A DNA stretch of 64,000 bases, taken from positions 1-64,000 of IMG/VR virus record IMGVR_UViG_3300045922_000293; one strand, 5' to 3'. The position numbers and the translations under genes are program-made. Positions within the stretch are counted from its first letter, which is position 1, and every line of letters begins with the position of its first letter. The notes beneath the pieces were generated by a model. That model made no database searches. It was not told where the DNA came from and saw nothing but the letters and a program-made list of their open reading frames with translations. Source of the stretch: a virus. Shown one piece after another: positions 3,203-52,723 of this stretch.

Positions 3203-3866
3203 TGTTCAGGTTCAACAGATCCTAGACGCCGTGGCGGAGATGCGTGTAGATCTGCCCCTCGCGGTGGATTTTCTCACAGCGGAGTTACTTCAAGAGAAGA
3301 TTCTTGAGGTGAGAAATCATGATAATAATGTGCAGTATTATTATCGCCAGATCATCTCTTCCAAACGTGTTGTGGAGGCCGCCTATCAATGCGCGCAGCT
3401 AGAATATGATGTGCTCTATGATGAGACCTTAGTGTCCGATGCCGTGTTAAGGTATAGCAGTGCGAAGGATCGTGAGTCTAAGACGAAGACGATCTTGAAA
3501 GATCACAAGAGGGCTTTGGACAAACATAAACGTGATCTGACCGACTTGAAGCATCTTGAGACAATTACGAAGGCCAAGATCAATGAGCTGAAGAGTGTAT
3601 CTCAAGATATTCAAAAATTGCGATCGTTGATGCGCGATGGTAACGAGTCGAAGAGTTATTACGGATCTGAGTATACGGATAGCATCCGATCTGAGCCCAA
3701 AGATCTGAAGGTTTCAGATGAGGTCTTGTTAGAGGGGGTTCGTCAAAAACCTGACCCCATAAAGTTTGATGATCTTCATGTAGTATCCGCGACGGATCAC
3801 GTCCCCGTTCCTAGTCAACATAAATCTGAAGCCTCTTTTGAGGACTATTTTGACGATCTTTCTTGA
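3192..3866 (+). CDS. Predicted coiled-coil protein, 224 aa
   Basis: Function unknown. I start it at ATG 3192, inside the end of the previous gene, because residues upstream in this frame are Arg/Trp/Pro-rich out-of-frame shadow. Residues from roughly 50 to 150 are rich in Lys, Glu, Asp and Leu with heptad-like spacing (KDHKRALDKHKRDL), predicting a coiled coil. The C-terminal third is acidic and probably disordered, ending in EDYFDDLS. Acidic tails of this kind are common on phage DNA-metabolism proteins and can act as protein-docking peptides. It closes the short operon; a gap of about 200 nt follows. Confidence 0.65.
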   Translation: MLSDVQVQQILDAVAEMRVDLPLAVDFLTAELLQEKILEVRNHDNNVQYYYRQIISSKRVVEAAYQCAQLEYDVLYDETLVSDAVLRYSSAKDRESKTKTILKDHKRALDKHKRDLTDLKHLETITKAKINELKSVSQDIQKLRSLMRDGNESKSYYGSEYTDSIRSEPKDLKVSDEVLLEGVRQKPDPIKFDDLHVVSATDHVPVPSQHKSEASFEDYFDDLS

Positions 3867-4068
3867 TCAGGGCCTCTCCTCTGTCAAATAAATAAAAAAG
3901 ATGTAAACAGACCACTTTCTGGGGGCTATACATCATAGTGAAGATTGAGGTGACACCAACACGCACGAGGGCAGGCGTCAATCATCTTAACTCAAGGCCA
4001 GCGTCCATAAGACTAAGCCTTTCAATCCCGAAACAAAAGCCCCTCGCCTAATAGGAGCGCGTAAGACC
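3867..4068. other. Intergenic gap before candidate SSB gene
   Basis: About 200 nt without a convincing gene. It separates the RecD2 operon from the SSB/RuvC/RecA group and ends in a ribosome-binding stretch (AGGAGCG at about 4051) ahead of the ATG at 4069. A promoter is expected here, but I see no clear sigma-70 boxes, and the CTTTT motif found upstream of structural genes is absent. Confidence 0.4.
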
Positions 4069-4758
4069 ATGAGTGATTTTATAGGTTTTGGTGTGAATGA
4101 TGAGGTTCTTAGCCGTGGTGATCTTGAGTATTATCGTGGCAAGCAGGGCATTGTGGATCGCATCGCGTTGTGCTGGCTCAATCGTGATGCAGACGGCAAG
4201 CCGCTTATCAGTGACTTCCGTGATCCAGATCCCAAGATCACCCCGCGCTTCAAGCTGGAGATGCACCACTATGTGCAAGGCTTGGGGTATATTAAGCCCG
4301 TGGATCCGTACACCACTGAGAAGTTTGGCCCTCCCAAGACGATGATCACGACGTTTATCGTCAAGTATGCGACGGACCGCCTTGGGCAGATTCATGGTGA
4401 TCTTGATATCTCTAAGGTCTCTGTTCACCCTTGGAAGGTGAGCCCTGACAAGTTCAACCGTATGAAGGTCATGCACGGGGAGTTCAATCTCACCTGCACC
4501 GACATTAAGGTCTCTTGTAAAGAAGAGAAGTTTCAGAACATGGATATGACTCAGTGCAACGGCCTTGCGTTGTGGATCAAAGACCCTGAGATCCGCAAGT
4601 TTGTTTTGAAGCAGGTTGAGCAGATGGAGCGCAAGCTCAAGGGTGTCCGTGAGTTGACGGTCGCCGAGATTAAAGAGAAGCTGGGGGAGTCTGAGGTGGC
4701 GGTCCCCGCAACGGCGGATGCCTCTAACTTTGATGATCTGATGGACACCTTGGGCTAG
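4069..4758 (+). CDS. Probable single-stranded DNA-binding protein
   Basis: Assigned by architecture and neighbourhood rather than clear homology. The 229-residue protein has a mixed alpha/beta N-terminal body of about 190 residues, with Cys and aromatic residues around 140-155 (TCTDIKVSCKEE). A flexible segment follows, ending in an acidic amphipathic tip, NFDDLMDTLG. Phage and bacterial SSBs carry such acidic C-terminal tips to recruit partners; T4 gp32 is one example. It is followed by a strong terminator and then by RuvC-like and RecA-like genes, a usual setting for an SSB. It has its own upstream gap and RBS and is tightly terminated, which would fit high-level independent expression. A structural protein is the main alternative. 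Confidence 0.5.
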   Translation: MSDFIGFGVNDEVLSRGDLEYYRGKQGIVDRIALCWLNRDADGKPLISDFRDPDPKITPRFKLEMHHYVQGLGYIKPVDPYTTEKFGPPKTMITTFIVKYATDRLGQIHGDLDISKVSVHPWKVSPDKFNRMKVMHGEFNLTCTDIKVSCKEEKFQNMDMTQCNGLALWIKDPEIRKFVLKQVEQMERKLKGVRELTVAEIKEKLGESEVAVPATADASNFDDLMDTLG

Positions 4759-4763
4759 CCAAC

Positions 4764-4797
4764 AAAATATCCCCCCTTTCAAAAGGGGGGATATTTT
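4764..4797 (+). terminator. Rho-independent terminator after candidate SSB gene
   Basis: A near-perfect hairpin with six C (4771-4776) pairing to six G (4785-4790), extended by AAAATAT/ATATTTT on the outside and closed by a T/A-rich loop. The 3' arm ends in a run of T. It sits 6 nt after the stop codon. The A-rich 5' flank also makes it terminator-like on the minus strand. Confidence 0.85.
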
Positions 4798-4858
4798 TGC
4801 GTGAAGATACATGACGCCCCTTCATAGGGGCGTGGAAGGGCACAAGGATGACGCGGAA

Positions 4859-5599
4859 ATGAAATACATAGGTCTTGACCCGAGTTTGGCGGGGTTTGGG
4901 TATAGTGTGATCACGCATACGATCAATGAGGAGGGTCAAGAAGTCAATCAACCGTTAGATCATGGCGTATGGAAGACTCCATCTTCTATGCTTTACGTTA
5001 AGCGTTATATGACGTTAGCCGCGCATATGGATCGCCTTGTGGCCGATCACCCTGATGCTGTGATAGGTATGGAAATCCCGCCCCCTCAAGCCTCATGGTT
5101 CGGAGGCTTGTATGCATTACATGTAAAATTGATGGAGATTGCCTTAGTCCATAGACGTTTTACAGTATTGTGGTCCCCCTCTACGGTGAAGAGTGTCTCT
5201 CAGGGGTTTTTGGGATATAAAGGCACCCTATCTAAGCATGAAATGGTGAAGACGGCGGCGAAGATATTTGGTAACTACGAAGGTAAGAAGACTTATAACC
5301 ATAATGCGGCGGATGCCCTTATCGTGGCTTATACGACGGCCAGATTCAACGCATACCGCTTAAATCTATTGCCCGCCTCCTCCTTATCCATCTATGAAAC
5401 GCATTCTTTTATTAAGAATGCTCGGGGTGTGAAGGGGCACATAACGAAAGAAGATGAGTATTTTTTCTCATTTAATACCGAGAAATGGGCTCATATTTTA
5501 GATGATATAGATGTGCTGCCCTCCCCAAGGGGTTCCACACACCCCATTCTCCCAAAATTTGAAACTCCCGTGAAGAAAACACGAAAGAAAAAGGCATAA
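4859..5599 (+). CDS. RuvC-like Holliday junction resolvase
   Basis: The N-terminus MKYIGLDPSLAGFGYSVI is the first strand of the RNase H-like RuvC fold, with the catalytic Asp at position 7. A second acidic site lies in GMEIPPPQ (about residue 80), and the C-terminal acidic pair in NHNAADALIVAY (about 160) is the RuvC HNxADAL signature. I choose ATG 4859 (246 aa) rather than the longer ATG at 4811: it opens exactly at the conserved strand and has AAGGA 11 nt upstream. The extra 70 or so C-terminal residues, Lys-rich at the end (KKTRKKKA), exceed bacterial RuvC length. It should cut four-way junctions made during recombination or before packaging. The gene lies 4 nt before the RecA-like gene. 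Confidence 0.85.
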   Translation: MKYIGLDPSLAGFGYSVITHTINEEGQEVNQPLDHGVWKTPSSMLYVKRYMTLAAHMDRLVADHPDAVIGMEIPPPQASWFGGLYALHVKLMEIALVHRRFTVLWSPSTVKSVSQGFLGYKGTLSKHEMVKTAAKIFGNYEGKKTYNHNAADALIVAYTTARFNAYRLNLLPASSLSIYETHSFIKNARGVKGHITKEDEYFFSFNTEKWAHILDDIDVLPSPRGSTHPILPKFETPVKKTRKKKA

Positions 5600-5603
5600 T
5601 AAC

Positions 5604-6830
5604 ATGACATCAAAGTTTTCGGTCATCATGTCCTCTCTCAGAAAGTCTAAAGGGGGGATCATTGACATCAATAACAAGGTCAATACAAGCATTCACAGTG
5701 CTAGCCTCCCCCATATTTCTACAAACTGCATCTTGATTGATCACTTGATCGGGGGCACCCCCACGGCATCAGGAGAGTTGCTCTGTCCGGGATTCCCCAA
5801 GGGCCGCATTGTGGAGGTGTACGGAGGAGAGGGGTCGGGTAAGACAAGCCTTTGTCTTCAGGCAGCGGCTATGTGTCAGAAGAACGGCGGATCGGTTCTC
5901 TATCTGGACTATGAAAACGCGATCTCATTGCCTTATGCGACGGCGTTAGGTCTCGATATCAATGATGAAGACTCGTTTGTGATCTGGCAACCTCAACACT
6001 TTGAGGAAGGCGCAGAGCTGATCAAGAAGTGTGTGGAGGGTGGTATCGATCTCATTATTGTAGATAGCGTGAGCGCGATGGTGCCCCAGAAGCTTCTTGA
6101 ATCCGCCTCGGATCTTGGTCAGATCGGCATCTTGGCCCGTAGCATGTCTGCCTTCTTGCCCAAAGTGGTCAAAGAATGTCATAAAATGGGCACAACGATC
6201 GTCTTCATTAATCAGGTCCGCAACCGCATCAAGGCATCTAAGTATGATGCAGGGCCTGACGAGGATACAAGCGGGGGTAAGGCGCTTAAGTATTATGCGA
6301 GCCTTCGTCTTAAGTTGGCGGCCCGCACGAAGCTCAAGCGTCAGATCGTGAACCATCTCACAGGTGCAAAAGAAGAACAGGATTATGCAACGGTTGTGCG
6401 TGTGACGGGCATCAAGAATAAGCTCGCGCCGCTACAAGGGAATAAAGTGGATGTCACGGTACGCTTCGGCATGGGCTTTGACAACTTTCAAAGCATCATT
6501 GATATCGCGATGGCTAGAAATATCATCAAGAAGGCTGGGGCTTGGATGCGGTTTGAAGGCGCGGATGGTGAACCAGTGAGCTTGCAAGGGGCGGATAAGC
6601 TCTATACCTACCTAAAAGAGCACCCAGCGGATTATCAAGCTATTTTAGGCAAGATCACGGAATTCTTCGAGGCGATCGATAGCATGGCCGCGATCCGTGA
6701 TGCTTCGGATGGTTCAGAAGATAAAGATATGTCCGTCACTTATGTGGAGGAAAAGATATCTGACGATGATGACCTGTTTGATGATGACGATCTTGAGGTG
6801 GATGAAGAAGGGTTTATAGACTTCAGCTGA
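5604..6830 (+). CDS. recA: RecA-family recombinase
   Basis: The ATPase core has Walker A GGEGSGKTS (K80), Walker B DLIIVDSVSAMVP, and an L2/motif segment INQVRNRI followed by SGGKALKYYASLRL, all typical of RecA and phage UvsX-like proteins. The last 25 residues are very acidic (DDDLFDDDDLEV), as in bacterial RecA, where the tail restrains DNA binding. At 408 residues it is slightly longer than E. coli RecA (353). It forms filaments on ssDNA and drives strand exchange, probably with the upstream SSB and RuvC-like proteins and the downstream SbcCD-like nuclease. The Walker A is closer to RecA (GPESSGKT) than to UvsX, so I use the recA label. Confidence 0.92.
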   Translation: MTSKFSVIMSSLRKSKGGIIDINNKVNTSIHSASLPHISTNCILIDHLIGGTPTASGELLCPGFPKGRIVEVYGGEGSGKTSLCLQAAAMCQKNGGSVLYLDYENAISLPYATALGLDINDEDSFVIWQPQHFEEGAELIKKCVEGGIDLIIVDSVSAMVPQKLLESASDLGQIGILARSMSAFLPKVVKECHKMGTTIVFINQVRNRIKASKYDAGPDEDTSGGKALKYYASLRLKLAARTKLKRQIVNHLTGAKEEQDYATVVRVTGIKNKLAPLQGNKVDVTVRFGMGFDNFQSIIDIAMARNIIKKAGAWMRFEGADGEPVSLQGADKLYTYLKEHPADYQAILGKITEFFEAIDSMAAIRDASDGSEDKDMSVTYVEEKISDDDDLFDDDDLEVDEEGFIDFS

Positions 6831-42394: not shown

Positions 42395-43000
42395 ATGAAA
42401 AAGCGTTCACGTGTTATTGACGCGCCTGTTGAGCGTCAGAAATTAGAGATGATGTTGCAGATCATCTTAGATGCTCATGAACACACGGTTCAGTTGATGA
42501 ATCATGTGGACGCTATTTCAGATAAGATCGAGAAGAGTGACCACAAAGATCATTTTTATGCTGAAGCGGGGGATGTGATCGTACAGAGCCCCCGTTTTCT
42601 GCAAGATCTTCGTGGATGTATTAGCGCCCTTGAAGTCATGATTCTTGACACCCTTCGCCCCCATGCCCGCGAGTCCATGCCAAGATTACACAGGGATCGA
42701 TGGAAAAAGCTACATAATAAAAAATCACATTCACATCTGCCCGGGGATCCATTCAAATCAAATCAACTCCCAAATAACAGGACAGTTGCGGAGAAATTCT
42801 ATTTCAACACGCTTAATGACGGGGGGTCATCTGTACAGGATGAATCCATGCGGTCCCCCGATGAATCCATTTATGAACAGTCAAGCGCCTATAGTTTAGC
42901 TAAAGACCAATCACGATCCCATTCAGATTGGCGTGACTGGTCAGAATTGAACGTGTCTTATAATCCATCCACCTCTATCCCAAAGAATATAAGACGATGA
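42395..43000 (+). CDS. Hypothetical structural-cluster protein, 201 aa
   Basis: Unknown. Helical over the first 110 residues (MMLQIILDAHEHTVQLM), then basic (RDRWKKLHNKKSHSH), then a Ser/Asp-rich tail without clear structure. It begins 3 nt after the preceding stop and overlaps the next gene by 4 nt, which supports an operon running through 44030. Confidence 0.6.
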   Translation: MKKRSRVIDAPVERQKLEMMLQIILDAHEHTVQLMNHVDAISDKIEKSDHKDHFYAEAGDVIVQSPRFLQDLRGCISALEVMILDTLRPHARESMPRLHRDRWKKLHNKKSHSHLPGDPFKSNQLPNNRTVAEKFYFNTLNDGGSSVQDESMRSPDESIYEQSSAYSLAKDQSRSHSDWRDWSELNVSYNPSTSIPKNIRR

Positions 43001-43392
43001 AGCATACTTTAGCCTGTACCTTTTGTGGGTCTTCTCAAACCCTTCATATGAGGGTACAAGAATTTAATGAGGTCAAAGAATCCGGCATTCCGTGTGTGGC
43101 CTGCCAAGCAGGTAGATGCTACCCCGTATTTAAGCCTCGCGCTTTGAGCATAGGCATGGTGGGCGATGCATGGTCGGATAAGAATTTAAAAGAGAAGGAA
43201 TATAGAGCACAACGATCATCTTATCTGGGAAAGAAGCAGCGGGATAGTCATTTTGTGCCTACGCTACAGCCTAATTATAACGGTGAAGAGACGGGAACCT
43301 GGCGTGATGCAATGGAAGTTGCTTCAAAAGACGATAAAGATATCACGGGTTATGTGCCGCTTGTAGCGAAAGAGGGGGATGCATCATCATGA
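42997..43392 (+). CDS. Zinc-ribbon protein, 131 aa
   Basis: The N-terminal CTFCGS (C7, C10) and CVACQAG (C33, C36) make a C-x2-C...C-x2-C zinc ribbon, followed by a disordered, polar C-terminal 80 residues. Both flanks overlap by ATGA. A related layout is found at 57790. In phage neck clusters such small proteins may be virion parts or transcription-associated factors; no function can be assigned. Confidence 0.65.
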   Translation: MKHTLACTFCGSSQTLHMRVQEFNEVKESGIPCVACQAGRCYPVFKPRALSIGMVGDAWSDKNLKEKEYRAQRSSYLGKKQRDSHFVPTLQPNYNGEETGTWRDAMEVASKDDKDITGYVPLVAKEGDASS

Positions 43393-44030
43393 CACAGCAG
43401 CGTTTCATGAGCCTGTACAGACGATCCGAGGGCTTAATAGACTTACTAATTCCTGATCGTCTTGATCTCACAACGGGAACAGAATACGCCGAATCTTATG
43501 ATATTCTTCATGCTCCTAATTGGGATCAAGCTTTTGTACCATTAGAGCAGGGGGTCATATGCGGGATCGGGTTCACATCCCCAAGTGTCCCCTATGCCCA
43601 ACGTCTTACGGCGGGGGGTGGTGCTCCTTTTCGCGGGAAGACGCGTGTGGTCTTGGTTTTAGAGGATTATGCACTTTTAGAGAATGATCTTCAATTTTTT
43701 CAAATCCAAGCAAATTACCCTACACAACCCCCTGATTTAAGTCCTATTCATGTGATTGCTACGTCTAATCAGTATAGGGTCAGAAATGCGGGGCTTGTGT
43801 TAAGTGGTGCCGTCTCCGCCCCCACGGTTTTGGAATTGCCTGCATTGTGCTCAGGGGGTCAGTTTCTCGTGACCGCCGGAACGGCTTTGGCTCAATTTGG
43901 TAAGGGGGCTGGCGTGGTCACCATTTCATCGGGGGTGTTTTATAGTAATTTCGGGGGTCAATTCTCTCAAATGACTTTAGACGGGGGTGCGACTTTATCC
44001 GCATCACTTGTGATGAATCCTTTAAAGTGA
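43389..44030 (+). CDS. Beta-rich structural-cluster protein, 213 aa
   Basis: Predicted mostly beta (VVLVLEDYALLE, TVLELPALCSGG, AGVVTISSGVFYS). It has no membrane segment; its composition is like tail or head-tail joining proteins. It overlaps the zinc-ribbon gene by 4 nt and is followed by a candidate promoter motif. Function unknown. Confidence 0.6.
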   Translation: MTQQRFMSLYRRSEGLIDLLIPDRLDLTTGTEYAESYDILHAPNWDQAFVPLEQGVICGIGFTSPSVPYAQRLTAGGGAPFRGKTRVVLVLEDYALLENDLQFFQIQANYPTQPPDLSPIHVIATSNQYRVRNAGLVLSGAVSAPTVLELPALCSGGQFLVTAGTALAQFGKGAGVVTISSGVFYSNFGGQFSQMTLDGGATLSASLVMNPLK

Positions 44031-44050
44031 GGATCTTTTAATTTAGTGTG
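44031..44050 (+). promoter_or_regulatory. GATCTTTTAATTTAGTGTG motif, candidate late promoter
   Basis: Immediately after the stop of the preceding gene and about 80 nt before ATG 44127. Core as at 38771. Confidence 0.45.
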
Positions 44051-44126
44051 AGTAAAAGATCGTGATTTCTTTAAGTAGACTTGTTTTGTAGACGCGTTCT
44101 ATAACGTTCCTAAAGAGAGTGGTATC

Positions 44127-44753
44127 ATGGCAAAGCTCAGGCTTATTCACACCCGCACTTCCCCAAGCGTGGTTTATTTGACAGACGTGGACAGCGGGCT
44201 CTCGAATGAGTCGATGCCTGCTCGTCTTTTGAAGCAAGATGTGTACATCCCGTTTAATCTTACAAATCTTGTAGGCACAGGACCTGTTCTGCGTGTTATG
44301 GATCCCACGACCCCTGGGTTTGTGGATCTTGTTCTGTCTGATAAGGTTGTGTTATCTTACGATCGGGGCGTGATCAGGTCGCATGTCGATAACGGGTTGT
44401 TGCAAGATGTGCTGTTGCCTGAGGGTTTTGATGATACCGTGACTGTTGCAACAGCGACGCATGATACGGATACAGATGCGACAAGCGCCGTGGATGATGG
44501 CCTGATTACGATTACAGGCACAAACTTTGTGTCCACCGCACCTTTTCATACTTCCGTAACCATTGTGGCAGGCACGGTGTCCCAGACGTTTACGCAGGAC
44601 GCCATTGTTCTAGGGGGTGGCACGGTGACGGCGACCCAGATTACGATCCCCGTGGCAGTCCACGGTCTGGCAACGGACGGTACGGAGGACGCTACGAGCG
44701 TGACGGTATCCGCGAATGCTCAGAATGTGACATTAGCTGTGACTGTGATTTAA
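44127..44753 (+). CDS. Structural-cluster protein with Ig/IPT-like C-terminal domain, 208 aa
   Basis: The first 100 residues are similar in layout to the next gene product: MA(K/R)-start, then LSYDRGVIRSHVDNG here against LSFDRGQISKLIEQG there. The C-terminal 100 residues read like an IPT/TIG or Ig-like beta sandwich (GLITITGTNFV, then Thr/Val-rich strands). Ig-like domains are common surface additions on phage head and tail proteins and often bind the host surface or glycans. RBS AGAGAG. It probably arose by duplication with the neighbour followed by domain gain. Confidence 0.6.
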   Translation: MAKLRLIHTRTSPSVVYLTDVDSGLSNESMPARLLKQDVYIPFNLTNLVGTGPVLRVMDPTTPGFVDLVLSDKVVLSYDRGVIRSHVDNGLLQDVLLPEGFDDTVTVATATHDTDTDATSAVDDGLITITGTNFVSTAPFHTSVTIVAGTVSQTFTQDAIVLGGGTVTATQITIPVAVHGLATDGTEDATSVTVSANAQNVTLAVTVI

Positions 44754-44800
44754 CAGGTCTTTGATGTAGGAAAATCGGATAGACAAGAGGAGATTTCAAA

Positions 44801-45214
44801 ATGGCTCGTATTACCGTAATTGATAGTGATGTAAAGGCAAGTATTTATCTTCAGGATCTTGAGCGCAGGCAGCGTCAGACGATCTTCCCCCCGGGGCAGG
44901 ATCAATATATCCGCCCTATTGATCTTGCTGCACTTCAGGCAAAGCTCGATGCGTTGGGCAGTGCAGTGCTAGCAGCGGCCTTTGTTGCTGCGACCGTGGA
45001 TGTGGATGATATCAGTCTTGCGACCCTTGAGGCTGAGGCAGGTGTTGTGTTGACCCCTGAGCAAGCCCAAGAGCTTCAAGATGTGCTCAGTGCTCGCATC
45101 GTTGAGACGGGGAATTTTCTTCTATCCTTTGATCGTGGTCAGATTTCAAAACTCATTGAGCAGGGCACAGTCAAGGTCTTCACCGAGAACGGATCGGGTC
45201 TTTTTGTGCTTTGA
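44801..45214 (+). CDS. Paralog of the preceding gene product, 137 aa
   Basis: MARITVIDSD opening and LSFDRGQISKLIEQG near residue 106 pair it with the 44127 protein, but this one lacks the Ig-like domain and has an Ala/Leu-rich central helix region instead (LAALQAKLDALGSAVLAAAF). Strong RBS AAGAGGAG. The family is unknown. A GC-rich imperfect hairpin (CCCTCCC/GGGAGGG, around 45221-45250) follows the stop. Confidence 0.6.
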   Translation: MARITVIDSDVKASIYLQDLERRQRQTIFPPGQDQYIRPIDLAALQAKLDALGSAVLAAAFVAATVDVDDISLATLEAEAGVVLTPEQAQELQDVLSARIVETGNFLLSFDRGQISKLIEQGTVKVFTENGSGLFVL

Positions 45215-45627: not shown

Positions 45628-45678
45628 TTCACCTCCTCAAGAGGCGTCCATGGTGTAGAAAAAACCCGAAAGTGTGAT

Positions 45679-45729
45679 ATAAGGGCGTTTAGGTCAGGGG
45701 GAATAATCCCGAATCCTAAGCGCCCTTAT
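45679..45729 (+). other. Long hairpin upstream of C-intein gene
   Basis: ATAAGGGCGTTTAGG (45679-45693) pairs with CCTAAGCGCCCTTAT (45715-45729), 15 bp with one G-U pair. Inside the loop GGGA/TCCC forms a second small stem. Only TTCG follows, so it is not a clear terminator. It ends 20 nt before ATG 45750 and would sit in the leader of the C-intein mRNA, where it could terminate upstream transcripts or modulate translation. Confidence 0.55.
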
Positions 45730-45749
45730 TTCGATGAGGTCAAACGATC

Positions 45750-46376
45750 ATGAGTCTTACTAAAGAGCAACGTGACAAGATCAACAAGGCTTTTTGGACA
45801 AAGTCTTTGAAGGTCAGATCCGCGACGAAAGACGGCGTGAAATGGATGCTTGTCAAGGATATCATGCGTCATGAAACACTACACAAGCCCCTTGTAAGGG
45901 TGTCCCTACGTGACGGGCGTCGCGTGACCTGTACACACGATCACAGCCTTATTTCACCGGATCTGACACCTCTCCAAGCCTCAACTGCGAGGGTAGGGGA
46001 TTACATTTTAGCGACCATGCCTGATGGTTTTCTGGGCTCGTGTAGGATTGTGAGTGTAGAATCTGTGAATCCGCACTTCTTCACCTATGATCTTTGTGTG
46101 CCGGGTCCAGAGAATTTCATCTTATCCAATGGGATTGTGGCACACAATTCATACTCCATTGGGGGTATTAGTTTAGATTTGAACAAATCTTCTCAATATG
46201 AAAGTTTGAAGGGGAATGCGGAGCAGCAGCTTGATAAGATGCTTGAGTCTAAGAGCCGCACTGTGAAGATCATGCGTGGCTTGAAGCAGAGTCGCTACGG
46301 AATTGGAGTGAGATCAGCTTTTGGCCCCGCGCTCAGTGGAGGCAACATCACCCCAAGAAAGTACTTAGGATTTTAA
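45750..46376 (+). CDS. Split intein C-terminal half plus C-extein
   Basis: Residues 1-133 are a Hint domain lacking block A. Block B is TCTHDHSL (TxxH: T62, H65), block F FFTYDLCVPGPENF, and block G NGIVAHN (H132, N133), followed by Ser134 as the +1 nucleophile. There is no homing endonuclease; only about 45 residues separate blocks B and F. Residues 134-208 are the C-extein, starting SYSIGGISLDL and ending PRKYLGF. It looks like the end of a structural protein and cannot stand alone. The missing N-intein lies at the end of the next gene, 41 nt downstream. Trans-splicing should join its 222-residue extein to this one. RBS GAGG. Confidence 0.87.
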   Translation: MSLTKEQRDKINKAFWTKSLKVRSATKDGVKWMLVKDIMRHETLHKPLVRVSLRDGRRVTCTHDHSLISPDLTPLQASTARVGDYILATMPDGFLGSCRIVSVESVNPHFFTYDLCVPGPENFILSNGIVAHNSYSIGGISLDLNKSSQYESLKGNAEQQLDKMLESKSRTVKIMRGLKQSRYGIGVRSAFGPALSGGNITPRKYLGF

Positions 46377-46391
46377 ACTTTTTATGGCATT
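46374..46391 (+). promoter_or_regulatory. TAAACTTTTTATGGC motif, weak candidate promoter before N-half gene
   Basis: Overlaps the stop of the C-half gene and lies about 30 nt before ATG 46418. If functional it would allow separate transcription of the N-half. Confidence 0.3.
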
Positions 46392-46417
46392 TCTAACAAA
46401 AAGCAAGGTGTGGGGTC

Positions 46418-47188
46418 ATGTCAGCAGTCTTCGTCAGGGGTAGCGCGATAGGCAGGGGGGATTTAGAGTTGTTTACAGTAGACAACGCGAATTTGCCTGC
46501 GAATGTGTTTGAAATCAGCTACGCCATTTATGATGTGACTACGGGGGTTGAGGTCTTGATAGGGTCAAGTGCCCGCACCCCTATCAATCCCGATGTAGGG
46601 GAATATTACGCCGCGCTTGAAATCCCCGCAAATGCGAGGACAGGCCTTTATCGCATAAGGTGGCGTTTGCGTGAAACCGCGACGGCTACAGAGATCGTGG
46701 TCGTGGAAGAATTCACGGTATTAGAAAATCAAACCGTGAATCCTTTAAGTTTGTATTCCCCTATTACCTTGGACATGGTGAGAAGGCTTCGTATTTTGCT
46801 CCGAGATAACTCTCCCGACAGAAATTATCGGTTCAGACCCCCAACGCATGAAGAGACAATCAATCGTTTTAATCGCGTGTTTGGTTATATTTGGGAGGAT
46901 TATGAGCTGGTGGAGTATATGGAGCGCGGGGTTGACTTTGTGAATCTAAGCCCCCCCGAAACACATTTTAATACAATTGATCTTATGGTACAAGCGAAGC
47001 CTGCGTGGCGTCAAATGATCCTCATGGCGGCGATGGCCCATGCCCTGATGGCCTTGAGTATCAATTGGGTATCCGAAGAGTTTTCGTTGATTGGGAGTGA
47101 AGAGATTGACATAGATGTGGACGGGGAGATCATTCGGTGTAGGCTTGATGATCTCTTTGATGCTGTATATTCACATGAAGATGCTTAA
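46418..47188 (+). CDS. N-extein plus 34-residue N-intein of split intein
   Basis: Residues 1-222 are a structural protein body: a beta domain (about 1-105, VRGSAIGRGDLELF at the start), then helical text with LYSPITLDMVRRLRILLRD and PAWRQMILMAAMAHALMALSINW. At VSEEF the protein changes into a short intein N-fragment, residues 223-256: SLIGSEEIDIDVDGEII then RLDDLF. This is the block A pattern with Ser at position 1, ending at a stop. Joining residue 222 to Ser134 of the upstream gene product gives ...NWVSEEF/SYSIGG, a 297-residue protein. Ser1 means N-to-O acyl shift rather than thioester chemistry. RBS AAGGTG. The rebuilt protein is probably a neck or head-tail connector component. Confidence 0.85.
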   Translation: MSAVFVRGSAIGRGDLELFTVDNANLPANVFEISYAIYDVTTGVEVLIGSSARTPINPDVGEYYAALEIPANARTGLYRIRWRLRETATATEIVVVEEFTVLENQTVNPLSLYSPITLDMVRRLRILLRDNSPDRNYRFRPPTHEETINRFNRVFGYIWEDYELVEYMERGVDFVNLSPPETHFNTIDLMVQAKPAWRQMILMAAMAHALMALSINWVSEEFSLIGSEEIDIDVDGEIIRCRLDDLFDAVYSHEDA

Positions 47189-47351: not shown

Positions 47352-50300
47352 ATGGATAAGAAAAAGAACCCCAATTTTGATAAAACCTTGTTGCTTCAAT
47401 TAAGGAGGGCGTTTGGGCCTAGATTCATGCCTTTCTTTGAAATGTACACCAATCTTTATATAATGGGCACGGGCGTAACGCCTGTGCCTGAGAATTTACT
47501 ACAAGAGATGCGTGGCACGTTTAGAAGGCTATCGCGCATGATCGAGAGTGAGATCGCGCGAGACGCAATTCTTGATAGTATTCAACAGATGGGACCTTCT
47601 CTCAAACGTCTTCAGCAGGGACAAGATTTCCCCATGATTTGGCGCACGGTATCACGTCAAATGGGGGCTATTATCTCTGAGGTGGCAAAAGATCGCGGTA
47701 TTTATGTCAAGCCCCGTCGCATCCACCCAGATGGTTGGGTACGTTATCAGCGCATGACAAAAGAGGAGACGTCGCTTGAAAAGCTCAAGGATAGTGATCC
47801 CGAAGCCTATGCGCGTGTTCTTGAGTTGCGTAAATTGCAAAAGGCGATTGCAGAGCAGATTAAGGCCAAGATTGAGGATTCGGGCCTTGTTCCCGTCCGC
47901 AAAAAATATTTAGGCAAGGTCGTTTGGGCCGCTGTGACACCTCAAGGTGAAGAGTTGGTGTACGATGATGACGGCGATGTCCTCCCCGTTGAAGCCTTTC
48001 TGGAGAAGCGTGAGGGTCACCTCAAGAGTATAAAGGCACTGAGCCGCACCGTGAAGGTAGACCTTGAGGATATGCGTTCTATGGATGATGCCGCCTTAGA
48101 GGCTTTAGAGGGTGAGGTCGTGTACACCGCGCTGACGGATGACAAGGCGAAGCAGAACGCGTTGACCCGTATTTATCCTGTCAAAGAGGTAGGATCGCGT
48201 AAGATGATCGTGGAAGGTCGTTTCAAGGGCATTTACCTAGATGAGATGATTAATGTTGTAGGCCGTCAGATTGAGGGTGTAGCCTATGATTTCGATCCCA
48301 AGACGGGTATCCCCCGCGCCCTGGAGTCGAGGGCTTCTGGTCAGCTTGAGATTAGTACGGTCAAGGAGCCTTATGTGACAGTGGGCGATGATGGTAGGCT
48401 CTTTTTGAAGCTCCCCAGCACGCATGAATTCTCTGCCCTCCGTAAGCGCATGACCGAATTGGCCCGTATCAATAGTGGTGTAGAGAAGGTTGCGGGCGTT
48501 CGCAGCTCTCAATTTTTCTTTGAGCCCAAAGATCTAGCCAGCGTGCGTGAGGCTTTGGGGTCTATGGCTTTGAGTACATCTGCGGCGGAGGCGGTGGACC
48601 GTTATTTCCGAACTATTGCACGTCATGAGCTCGCGACAACGGAGGAGAATCTTGCGCGATTTAGTGCAGAGCGTTTGGGTGGTTTTAAAAAGGGTCGTGA
48701 CCTGTATAGCGTTCAAAAGAAGGCTCTCGCTTGGGCTGCCGCCCGTCAGGGATCCGGCGTTTTAGCTTTAGGGACTGGGGTGGGGAAGACAAGCTGCGGG
48801 ATCGCTGCTTTTAAAAGTGCAATGAACGATCAGGAGGAGATGCAAGAGCCCTTTAGGGGCTTGTATGTGTGCCCTACAACGTTGACAGGCAACCTTCCAT
48901 CTGAAGCCTATCAGTTCATGGAGGACCCCAAAGAGTTTCTTGAAAATATTGATGTGTTGAGCTATACACAATTCACCAAGGCAGTCAAGAAAGACCCTAA
49001 CTTTATGCAACGCTATACGATCGTCATTTTTGACGAAGCACAGGAGTTGTCTGGGGGAAGTTCTGAGGCGGCGAAAGCCGCCAGCCGCCCTCACCCTCGT
49101 AAGCTGTTCATGACGGCCTCGCCGATGGAGCGCCGCCCCGCAGAGGTCTACACGTTGGCGGCTTTGGCAAATAATGAGGACGTCACGAGTAAGGAGTTTA
49201 GGCGTAATCGCAGGCTGTTCGAGGCGCGCTTTTGTGAGGAGATCGGCGGACGTTTTGTGTCCGTGAAAAATGATCCTGTGACGCAGAATGATATGCGCAC
49301 ATGGGTACGTCAAAACATCTTCCATACAGATAAGGCACAGGTTGAGGAGTATGTGCTCCCTGATGTTGTTAGAGGCAATACTTCGATTCACATGCACCCT
49401 GATGTGCAGATCGCGTATCGTGAGGTCACATCTAAGATCCGCCTTCATATGCAAGGCCTTGTGGAGAAGTTTAGGGATCAGAAAAGTACCGTGAGATCCC
49501 GTGATAAGATCGTAACTTCTGCCCGCACGAAGTTGGGTCCTGAGTTCAAGAAACTCATGCTTCTTGCGAATCTACCTGATAAAGTCATCCCTGGCGTTCC
49601 GAATCCAAAGATTCAACAGTCAATCCGAATCGTAGAAGAGCGGATTGAGAAGAGTGATCGTGTGATCTTTTTCACCGATCTTCCTGAAATGGCGGAGGAG
49701 AATGCCAAGCGTCTTAGTATGGAGTACCCGGGTACGCTCCATGCGTGCTGTCTCTCAAGCAAGATCTATCTCTATCGTAATGGTGAGATTGATCAGACGT
49801 TTAGGAAAAAAGCCTATAAGTCAAGCACCCGATCCTATGCGGCGGATGAATGGCAAATGTATGTGATGCATGAATACATCAAGCCTAACACGTTTGATGT
49901 GCTTACCGCTAGCCTTACGGCGTCTTATGCGAAGGGTCATAATTTACAGGAGTTCACCACGATCGTTCACCTTGATCGGGATTCTTGGAATGCTGAAATG
50001 ATGCAACAGCGTGAGGCTCGTAGCTGGCGTCAGGGCCAAAAAACATCAGTGGACTGCATCACCCTTGATGTGGTATATAGTGAGACGGCGGATGATTATG
50101 ATCGCACACTGGATGAGATCATGCGATTCAGTCAGGAGATGGAGGAGCAGTTGTTTAATGATATTATCGTCGCAAGTCAGACCCAAGCGCTTGGTGAAGA
50201 GTATTTCACGATGGAGCAGGAGACGACTACGAAGTATCAGGCGCAGCGCAAGATCATGGAGATGTCACTTTCCCCGTATGCGACGAATCATGCTAGGGCC

Positions 50301-50375
50301 GTGGAGGATTCTAACAACGGGGCCATGGTAGAGGAGGAGGATTTCACGGATCTTAACTTTCCTTTATTTGCCTAA
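47352..50375 (+). CDS. Structural-cluster SF2/SNF2-type helicase, 1007 aa
   Basis: The N-terminal 450 residues are unassigned, mostly helical and charged, with no methylase motifs. The C-terminal half is an SF2 motor: a Q-like region (YSVQKKALAWAA), Walker A ALGTGVGKTSCG (K479), DEAQ at 561-564, MTASPM as motif III, and a helicase C domain with ASYAKGHNLQEFTTIVHLDRD and QQREARSWRQGQ (motifs V-VI). It differs from the methylase-helicase at 6911 and lies among neck genes, next to the split intein. Helicases made with virion proteins are sometimes packaged and injected for antirestriction or DNA handling; that role here is inference. RBS GAGGT. Confidence 0.75.
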   Translation: MDKKKNPNFDKTLLLQLRRAFGPRFMPFFEMYTNLYIMGTGVTPVPENLLQEMRGTFRRLSRMIESEIARDAILDSIQQMGPSLKRLQQGQDFPMIWRTVSRQMGAIISEVAKDRGIYVKPRRIHPDGWVRYQRMTKEETSLEKLKDSDPEAYARVLELRKLQKAIAEQIKAKIEDSGLVPVRKKYLGKVVWAAVTPQGEELVYDDDGDVLPVEAFLEKREGHLKSIKALSRTVKVDLEDMRSMDDAALEALEGEVVYTALTDDKAKQNALTRIYPVKEVGSRKMIVEGRFKGIYLDEMINVVGRQIEGVAYDFDPKTGIPRALESRASGQLEISTVKEPYVTVGDDGRLFLKLPSTHEFSALRKRMTELARINSGVEKVAGVRSSQFFFEPKDLASVREALGSMALSTSAAEAVDRYFRTIARHELATTEENLARFSAERLGGFKKGRDLYSVQKKALAWAAARQGSGVLALGTGVGKTSCGIAAFKSAMNDQEEMQEPFRGLYVCPTTLTGNLPSEAYQFMEDPKEFLENIDVLSYTQFTKAVKKDPNFMQRYTIVIFDEAQELSGGSSEAAKAASRPHPRKLFMTASPMERRPAEVYTLAALANNEDVTSKEFRRNRRLFEARFCEEIGGRFVSVKNDPVTQNDMRTWVRQNIFHTDKAQVEEYVLPDVVRGNTSIHMHPDVQIAYREVTSKIRLHMQGLVEKFRDQKSTVRSRDKIVTSARTKLGPEFKKLMLLANLPDKVIPGVPNPKIQQSIRIVEERIEKSDRVIFFTDLPEMAEENAKRLSMEYPGTLHACCLSSKIYLYRNGEIDQTFRKKAYKSSTRSYAADEWQMYVMHEYIKPNTFDVLTASLTASYAKGHNLQEFTTIVHLDRDSWNAEMMQQREARSWRQGQKTSVDCITLDVVYSETADDYDRTLDEIMRFSQEMEEQLFNDIIVASQTQALGEEYFTMEQETTTKYQAQRKIMEMSLSPYATNHARAVEDSNNGAMVEEEDFTDLNFPLFA

Positions 50376-51358: not shown

Positions 51359-52723
51359 ATGTCTGGGTATCCTCCCTATAACAAGCGATACCCCCCTTTT
51401 GACGGGTATAAGGATCGCAAGACATCCCCGTTAGAATGGGAGGATACGCAGTACCCGTTGGCCCCGCTCAACGTGAACGTGCAATGGTCGTTTAACTCCA
51501 CGCTCCCCGCGATGGATCTCTACTGGGACCCGCCGCAGTGGCTGATCTTCAATGGTGTGTTCCGCATCATGGGCGTGAATATCTACCGTGCTCTCGATTC
51601 GGAATATGGGCCTTACTTCAGATTAAATACGGCCCCGTTAGGTTCTACTTTTTACAGGGATGAGACGATCAATCAGGACGTGGTAAATGAAGACGTAAGT
51701 TCTCAGTTTTTGGTCCGCCGTCCGGATCGATGTGTGTTCAAGGTTCAAAATTATCCCATTGTGAAAGCACACACCAACAATTTGTTAGCGGATCATCCCC
51801 TCGATGTCGCCGTGACCATAGATGGTGTCCCTGTACAGGTGGCTCGTGTCTGGGGTGAGACGGGTGAGGTGGAGTTGAGGACGGACATTCTCTATGACAG
51901 CTCTTCCAATGAGCGTACTTATCCGATCTTGCCGCGTGAAGATTCAGTTGTAACATGCTCCTATGCCTATAATGTCAACTTTATAACAAATACACTGAAC
52001 CAGCGTATCTTTTACCGAATGACAACGGTCGGTGTTGACGAGTTTACGGGGGAGATGCGGGAGACGCCCTTACATTTAAGTGAAGCCAAATACCATCATC
52101 AAATGGAAAATGTGGATTATATTTGGAAGGAGGCGATTCATCGCAATAAATGGATTTTGTATCAGGGTGGCGAGCGTGTTAAGGTGTTCATCCGTAAATA
52201 TGTTGGGCCTAAATGCTCTTGTTATGATCAGACAATAGGCCAGCCGCGTAATAATTGTCCCGTCTGCTTTGGTACGGGCGTTCGGGGTGGTTATGAAGGT
52301 CCCTTTGAGATCTTGATCGCGCCCCCCGAGGCGGAGAAGACGATCCGGCAGACGGAGATCGGATTGCGCCAGGAGCAACAGTATGAATCATGGACGGGTC
52401 CGTCCCCTTTATTGAATCAGCGTGATTTTTTGGTCAAGTTGAATGGGGACCGCTACTCCATCGGCGCGACACGTCTTCCCACCAATCGCGGAAATGTCTT
52501 GCAGCAACATTTTCAAGTGGGCCTGATTGATAGCCGCGACATCAGACAACAAGTGCCTGTGACGGGAACCTTACCCTTGGCCTATCCTCAAACGCGCACA
52601 AGGGATCATGATGAGGATGAATTGAGCGCCGTCACCTACCCCCAGATGACAGATAAGTGTAATATTGAGGCTGAGCGTGAGCAGCGCGGTAGAACGCCGA
52701 CATTTGAAAATATAGTCTATTAG
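51359..52723 (+). CDS. Virion protein with zinc-binding module, 454 aa
   Basis: The N-terminal region is aromatic and Pro-rich (beta, YPPFDGYKDRKTSPLEW). The middle has beta strands with FN-III-like rhythm (QWSFNSTLPAMDLYWDPP). At about 283-304 CSC...CPVCFGTG forms a four-cysteine zinc site. The C-terminal part has KLNGDRYSIGATRLP. The position between neck genes suggests a neck or head-tail joining protein; the zinc site probably stabilises the fold. AAGGATG overlaps its start. Confidence 0.65.
   Translation: MSGYPPYNKRYPPFDGYKDRKTSPLEWEDTQYPLAPLNVNVQWSFNSTLPAMDLYWDPPQWLIFNGVFRIMGVNIYRALDSEYGPYFRLNTAPLGSTFYRDETINQDVVNEDVSSQFLVRRPDRCVFKVQNYPIVKAHTNNLLADHPLDVAVTIDGVPVQVARVWGETGEVELRTDILYDSSSNERTYPILPREDSVVTCSYAYNVNFITNTLNQRIFYRMTTVGVDEFTGEMRETPLHLSEAKYHHQMENVDYIWKEAIHRNKWILYQGGERVKVFIRKYVGPKCSCYDQTIGQPRNNCPVCFGTGVRGGYEGPFEILIAPPEAEKTIRQTEIGLRQEQQYESWTGPSPLLNQRDFLVKLNGDRYSIGATRLPTNRGNVLQQHFQVGLIDSRDIRQQVPVTGTLPLAYPQTRTRDHDEDELSAVTYPQMTDKCNIEAEREQRGRTPTFENIVY

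Follow-up and report, generated by a model that had tools for sequence, protein, structure and literature searches.

Does the order of the parts of a gene matter once protein trans-splicing exists? The question is made testable by two adjacent genes in a 64,000-base stretch of viral DNA (the window; bases 1-64000 of the 113,160-base IMG/VR record IMGVR_UViG_3300045922_000293), the first carrying the C-terminal and the second the N-terminal half of an intein. An initial annotation had proposed that the two are parts of one phage structural protein, encoded in reversed order and joined through a split intein, and both open reading frames (ORFs) were found where it had placed them (Table 1). We conclude that they are very probably a head-tail connector gene split by a class 1 intein with serine at its first position and directly after its last (Ser1/Ser+1), with its halves permuted and its product predicted to be trans-spliced to 297 residues (aa). 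The finding is real and well supported at the level of sequence.

Evidence that the two exteins belong to one connector

Viral contigs commonly encode uninterrupted homologues, about 296 aa long (218 matches, of which the best 80 were listed). They include the part encoded by the C-half gene, and no family was found whose 222-residue product would be complete by itself. We built a profile from 55 uninterrupted relatives, leaving out the window sequence. The joined exteins match it as a single domain over columns 1-296 (447.8 bits), and in genomic order they occupy columns 222-296 and then 1-221 with neither gap nor overlap, as expected from the initially proposed junction between residue 222 of the N-half gene and Ser134 of the C-half gene and from a product of 297 residues.

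The joined exteins also match phrog_17327, 'head-tail connector' (3.9e-5), with the match spanning the junction; neither half gene taken singly matches this family. A homologue in phage Tunturi_5 is annotated as a head-tail connector, and the connector product has no Pfam match and no PDB match by sequence. Together these results support the assignment of the two exteins to one protein, a predicted head-tail connector. The initial label of capsid or neck protein thus held as to a single structural protein, and the identity is now refined.

In a model of a contiguous relative (L121), a beta-rich domain is followed by helices, and the intein interrupts the helical region. This model matches intein structures in the PDB; chains of 4v96, described as a viral genome injection device, are among its weaker PDB matches. 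For its N-intein the model draws on three contiguous rows only, because the alignment used (A4) placed the N-intein tails of the N-half genes wrongly, onto the C-extein.

Features of the intein halves

The C-half gene matches Pfam Intein_splicing (PF14890, 1.3e-10) and NCBIfam intein_Cterm (2e-07), and its model folds as a Hint domain in which the intein part mostly exceeds a predicted local distance difference test (pLDDT) value of 90 and matches PDB inteins. A profile of C-halves matches intein structures by sequence as well, including the cysteine-less Aes123 PolB1 intein (9hth). The proposed 34-residue N-intein ranked first of 1370 six-frame segments of the window against a profile of relatives' N-inteins (E 6.6e-5; next segment, 0.28), and in relatives the N-intein at this site usually has 31-35 aa.

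The residues expected to act in splicing are present: Ser1, His41 after Arg40, T62, H65, His132-Asn133 and Ser+1. H41, T62, D64, H65, H132 and N133 are invariant across 25 sequences, and the C-intein is 40-50% identical to the C-halves of relatives with the catalytic positions unchanged. An Arg/Lys-His pair in the NX motif is a signature of Ser1 inteins (PMC10189870), and the window carries it as Arg40-His41. The +1 residue of uninterrupted relatives is Asp in 58/68 and Ser in 5/68, whereas intein loci have Ser, or Thr in two contigs (L125, L126), a difference that fits a required nucleophile. The locus combines a nucleophile at position 1, a block B of the T..H type, a terminal His-Asn, Ser+1, a profile match and the fold, all of class 1. 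These features support a cysteine-less, atypically split class 1 intein for which splicing is predicted, and the relatives bear out the initial proposal of a split intein with Ser1 and a very short N-fragment.

The N-intein has a net charge of -9 and the C-intein of +5, while the C-inteins of most relatives are negative. The opposite charges of the window's halves are suggestive, as a single case. Being cysteine-less and split by nature, with an N-fragment of 34 aa and halves of opposite charge, the intein may be of use in protein ligation.

Order of the halves and the endonuclease in related loci

We compared the window with 32 other contigs, some of them near-copies of each other, that have an intein at the same site (site a, residue 222). 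The intein is split with the N half first in 25 and contiguous in the remaining seven (L009, L119, L121, L100, L128, L129 and L161), among them L009, whose intein is homologous to that of the window. The N half thus lies upstream in 25/25 split relatives and downstream in the window. The C-half-first order occurs in none of the 32 and in none of the loci with an intein at a second site (site b), so that the arrangement first described as unusual proves to be more than that.

In most split relatives the two halves are separated by an endonuclease gene of about 320 aa. Scans of three such endonucleases gave matches to DUF559, to MTES_1575 and, at strengths from weak to significant, to Vsr; with the queries used, no endonuclease gene was found in the window or in the record. 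Two contigs with flanks 97.6-97.8% identical differ in the state of the intein: L106 (4289-6624) has a split intein with an endonuclease gene, and L100 (5305-6705) a contiguous intein with no endonuclease there. A second such pair in closely similar DNA is L103 (split) and L128 (contiguous). These pairs show that gaining or losing the endonuclease gene can switch the intein between its two states.

Split inteins occur at scattered points of the connector tree (10 split rows, with at least 10 changes forced by well-supported branches), and the connector DNA of L106 is 87% identical to that of L047, with and without an intein, respectively. The scatter and this difference indicate that the intein element is mobile. 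The window groups in the connector tree with L015, L016, L041 and the split L140 (Shimodaira-Hasegawa-like approximate likelihood ratio test (SH-aLRT) 87), and in the C-intein tree it lies among mostly split relatives (SH-aLRT 82).

Several relatives have a connector gene in three pieces with two different split inteins (L103 at 3675-6612, and L115, L123, L124, L132 and L136), one at site b near residue 131 and mostly Cys1, the other at site a and Ser1; some of these loci have two endonuclease genes. Such a connector would be a natural protein dependent on two trans-splicing reactions. Another contig (L006, 2-1339) has a contiguous intein at a third site (c) near the connector end, with junctions GIGL|SITG...TSN|SVHLGPF. 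In L095 (6001-7831, labelled a Candidatus Altiarchaeales metagenome-assembled genome), the N-half gene overlaps, in another frame, an ORF that fuses an endonuclease-like part, a C-intein and a C-extein; this fusion may be an intermediate between an intein-borne and a free-standing endonuclease.

Predicted splicing and proposed origin of the reversed order

Expression of the connector would begin with separate translation of the C-intein/C-extein and N-extein/N-intein chains from the adjacent genes, which probably share one transcript. The intein, cut near its own N-terminus, would reassemble as its halves associate after translation, and Ser1, the NX and block B histidines, the C-terminal Asn and Ser+1 would then carry out trans-splicing to yield the 297-aa head-tail connector. 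This chemistry does not depend on the order of the parts in DNA, and the permutation is presumably tolerated for that reason. The initial suggestion that the split may regulate assembly found no support here.

As for its origin, a split intein with a Vsr-like endonuclease would have entered the connector gene of an ancestor in the order N half, endonuclease, C half, as in most relatives. In the lineage of the window the endonuclease would later have been lost and the halves swapped, most simply by tandem duplication and reciprocal loss. The locus is best read as a fractured gene that lacks its endonuclease and has its halves permuted, the reversed order presumably being the derived one. Because the halves are permuted, simple deletion cannot rejoin them.

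Several points weigh against this account. The reversed order comes from one metagenomic contig, splicing itself is predicted from sequence, and the C-intein tree places the window among split relatives only modestly (SH-aLRT 82). Searches of both flanks and the gap by tblastn and blastn for exteins, intein halves and nine endonucleases gave chance-level matches only, so no remnants of a duplication were found. The two intein halves also differ in affinity: the C-intein is of the site-a type (136 bits, against 52 for site b), whereas the N-intein scores 27.2 bits against site-b N-inteins and 5.2 against those of site a. Its better fit to site b makes the pairing of the two halves less certain, and may reflect mosaic origin or fast change within 34 residues.

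The absence of remnants and the mixed affinity of the halves are also what a different route would leave, one in which a single half shifted or two split inteins recombined, in place of duplication and reciprocal loss; several relatives do have both split inteins in one gene. We regard this variant as a serious if tentative possibility, since the N-intein comparison is based on 34 residues only and ordinary recombination would not easily produce a swap exactly at the splice junction. Taken as a whole, it is rather probable that the window holds a natural permuted protein gene, with its order restored by trans-splicing and its split no longer undone by loss of an insert; this gene possibly combines a site-b-like N-intein with a site-a C-intein.

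An assembly or template-switch artefact in a phage whose true order is normal would explain why the arrangement is seen in a single contig while the order is normal in each of the other 25 split loci. The exact C-then-N junction is also absent from the other viral contigs searched, though near-identical records may lie beyond the reach of such searches. Such an error is nonetheless improbable: there are no repeats at the junctions, GC content is even, both genes are complete with their own starts, the error would have to break the sequence exactly between genes two times over, and no endonuclease gene was found in the record. Loss of splicing, which would leave the connector as two non-covalent chains or lead to cleavage only, is improbable to the same degree. 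It draws on the fact that trans-splicing is a prediction and on a model whose insertion falls between helical parts, at a place that would allow two chains to pack; the intein halves remain complete, however, and all splicing residues and Ser+1 are retained in a C-half that has diverged to 40-50% identity with its relatives. A cyclic protein read from both genes as one chain, for which the order C-intein, C-extein, N-extein, N-intein is that used in engineered intein cyclisation, is highly improbable given the stop of the C-half gene, the different frames, the in-frame stop in the gap, the N-half gene's own start and relatives that need just a linear protein.

Comparison with known systems

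By current understanding, a contiguous intein becomes split when an endonuclease gene interrupts it, and such breaks are reversible. L100 and L106 differ in just this way, contiguous without and split with the endonuclease gene. The window, with its endonuclease lost and its halves permuted, has the look of a subsequent step that is difficult to reverse. In 2009 Dassa et al. reportedly described fractured genes, in which split inteins occur together with Vsr-like homing endonucleases. The window resembles them in that a conserved phage gene is broken in two by a split intein and in that its same-site relatives carry a Vsr-like endonuclease gene between the halves. It differs in its reversed halves, with a 41-bp gap and no endonuclease between them, and in its host gene, which encodes a structural protein rather than an enzyme of DNA metabolism.

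The PolB gene of jumbo phage MIJ3 likewise contains a split intein with Ser1 and Ser+1, but it is a polymerase gene and has an HNH endonuclease (orf154) between the halves (orfs 153 and 155; PMC6892783). The atypically split PolB16 intein has a 15-aa N-fragment and shares Ser1/Ser+1 and the NX histidine with the window intein (PMC10189870). A short N-intein with a long C-intein is common to the window, PolB16, AceL TerL, GOS TerL and VidaL; these four have other insertion sites, and an adjacent reversed order is not described for them in the accessible papers.

The closest likeness, carried to the protein level, is to permuted tRNA genes, in which the later part is encoded upstream of the earlier part (PMC3218864), as it is in circularly permuted group II introns (PMC8637638). 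Those rearrangements act at the RNA level within one transcript, whereas the window would yield two polypeptides joined at the protein level. We found no precedent for adjacent reversed split-intein halves in a literature whose coverage was incomplete (the original report of fractured genes fell outside it), and priority is unproven.

Layout and neighborhood of the locus

Each half occurs in one copy only in the whole record, and no second or intact connector copy was found there. Each half gene is complete and has a start of its own and an AGG-type stretch resembling a ribosome site; the C-half gene stops at 46374-46376, the N-half gene is in another frame, and the gap holds an in-frame stop. 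Directly 5′ of the C-half gene is a strong hairpin (fold of 45650-45752, -37.8 kcal/mol, z-score -4.8), for which, as for the rest of the window, an Rfam scan gave no match.

Table 1. Positions of the connector halves, the intein parts and the upstream hairpin in the window.
Feature	Position	Strand	Description
Strong hairpin	45675-45733	+	Directly 5′ of C-half gene; candidate terminator or leader
C-half gene	45750-46376	+	208 aa; C-intein then C-extein; Pfam and NCBIfam matches
C-intein	45750-46148	+	Residues 1-133; PF14890 1.3e-10; Hint-domain model
C-intein NX His41	45870-45872	+	
C-intein block B	T62..H65	+	
C-intein His132-Asn133	46143-46148	+	
C-extein	46149-46373	+	75 aa, first residue Ser+1; profile columns 222-296 of uninterrupted connectors
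Gap between halves	46377-46417	+	41 bp; frames differ, intervening stops; no endonuclease gene
N-half gene	46418-47188	+	256 aa; N-extein then N-intein
N-extein	46418-47083	+	222 aa; profile columns 1-221
N-intein	47084-47185	+	34 aa, first residue Ser1; N-intein profile match

The connector halves sit in the usual gene neighborhood of the family: homologues of the window genes at 42997-45214 also lie upstream of the connector in relatives, and a homologue of the structural gene at 51359 also lies downstream. Several relatives have a small gene ahead of the connector; it was not found in the present record and so tells nothing about the rearrangement. An SNF2-like helicase gene (47352-50375; Pfam SNF2-rel_dom 3.5e-10) lies between the N-half gene and the gene at 51359; no homologue of it was found at the connector loci of relatives. 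Outside the window, the same record carries a contiguous Cys1 intein in a DNA polymerase I-like gene (G000:C1:108028-111495), with junctions K|CVVGST...NHN|SANFAILYGGG.
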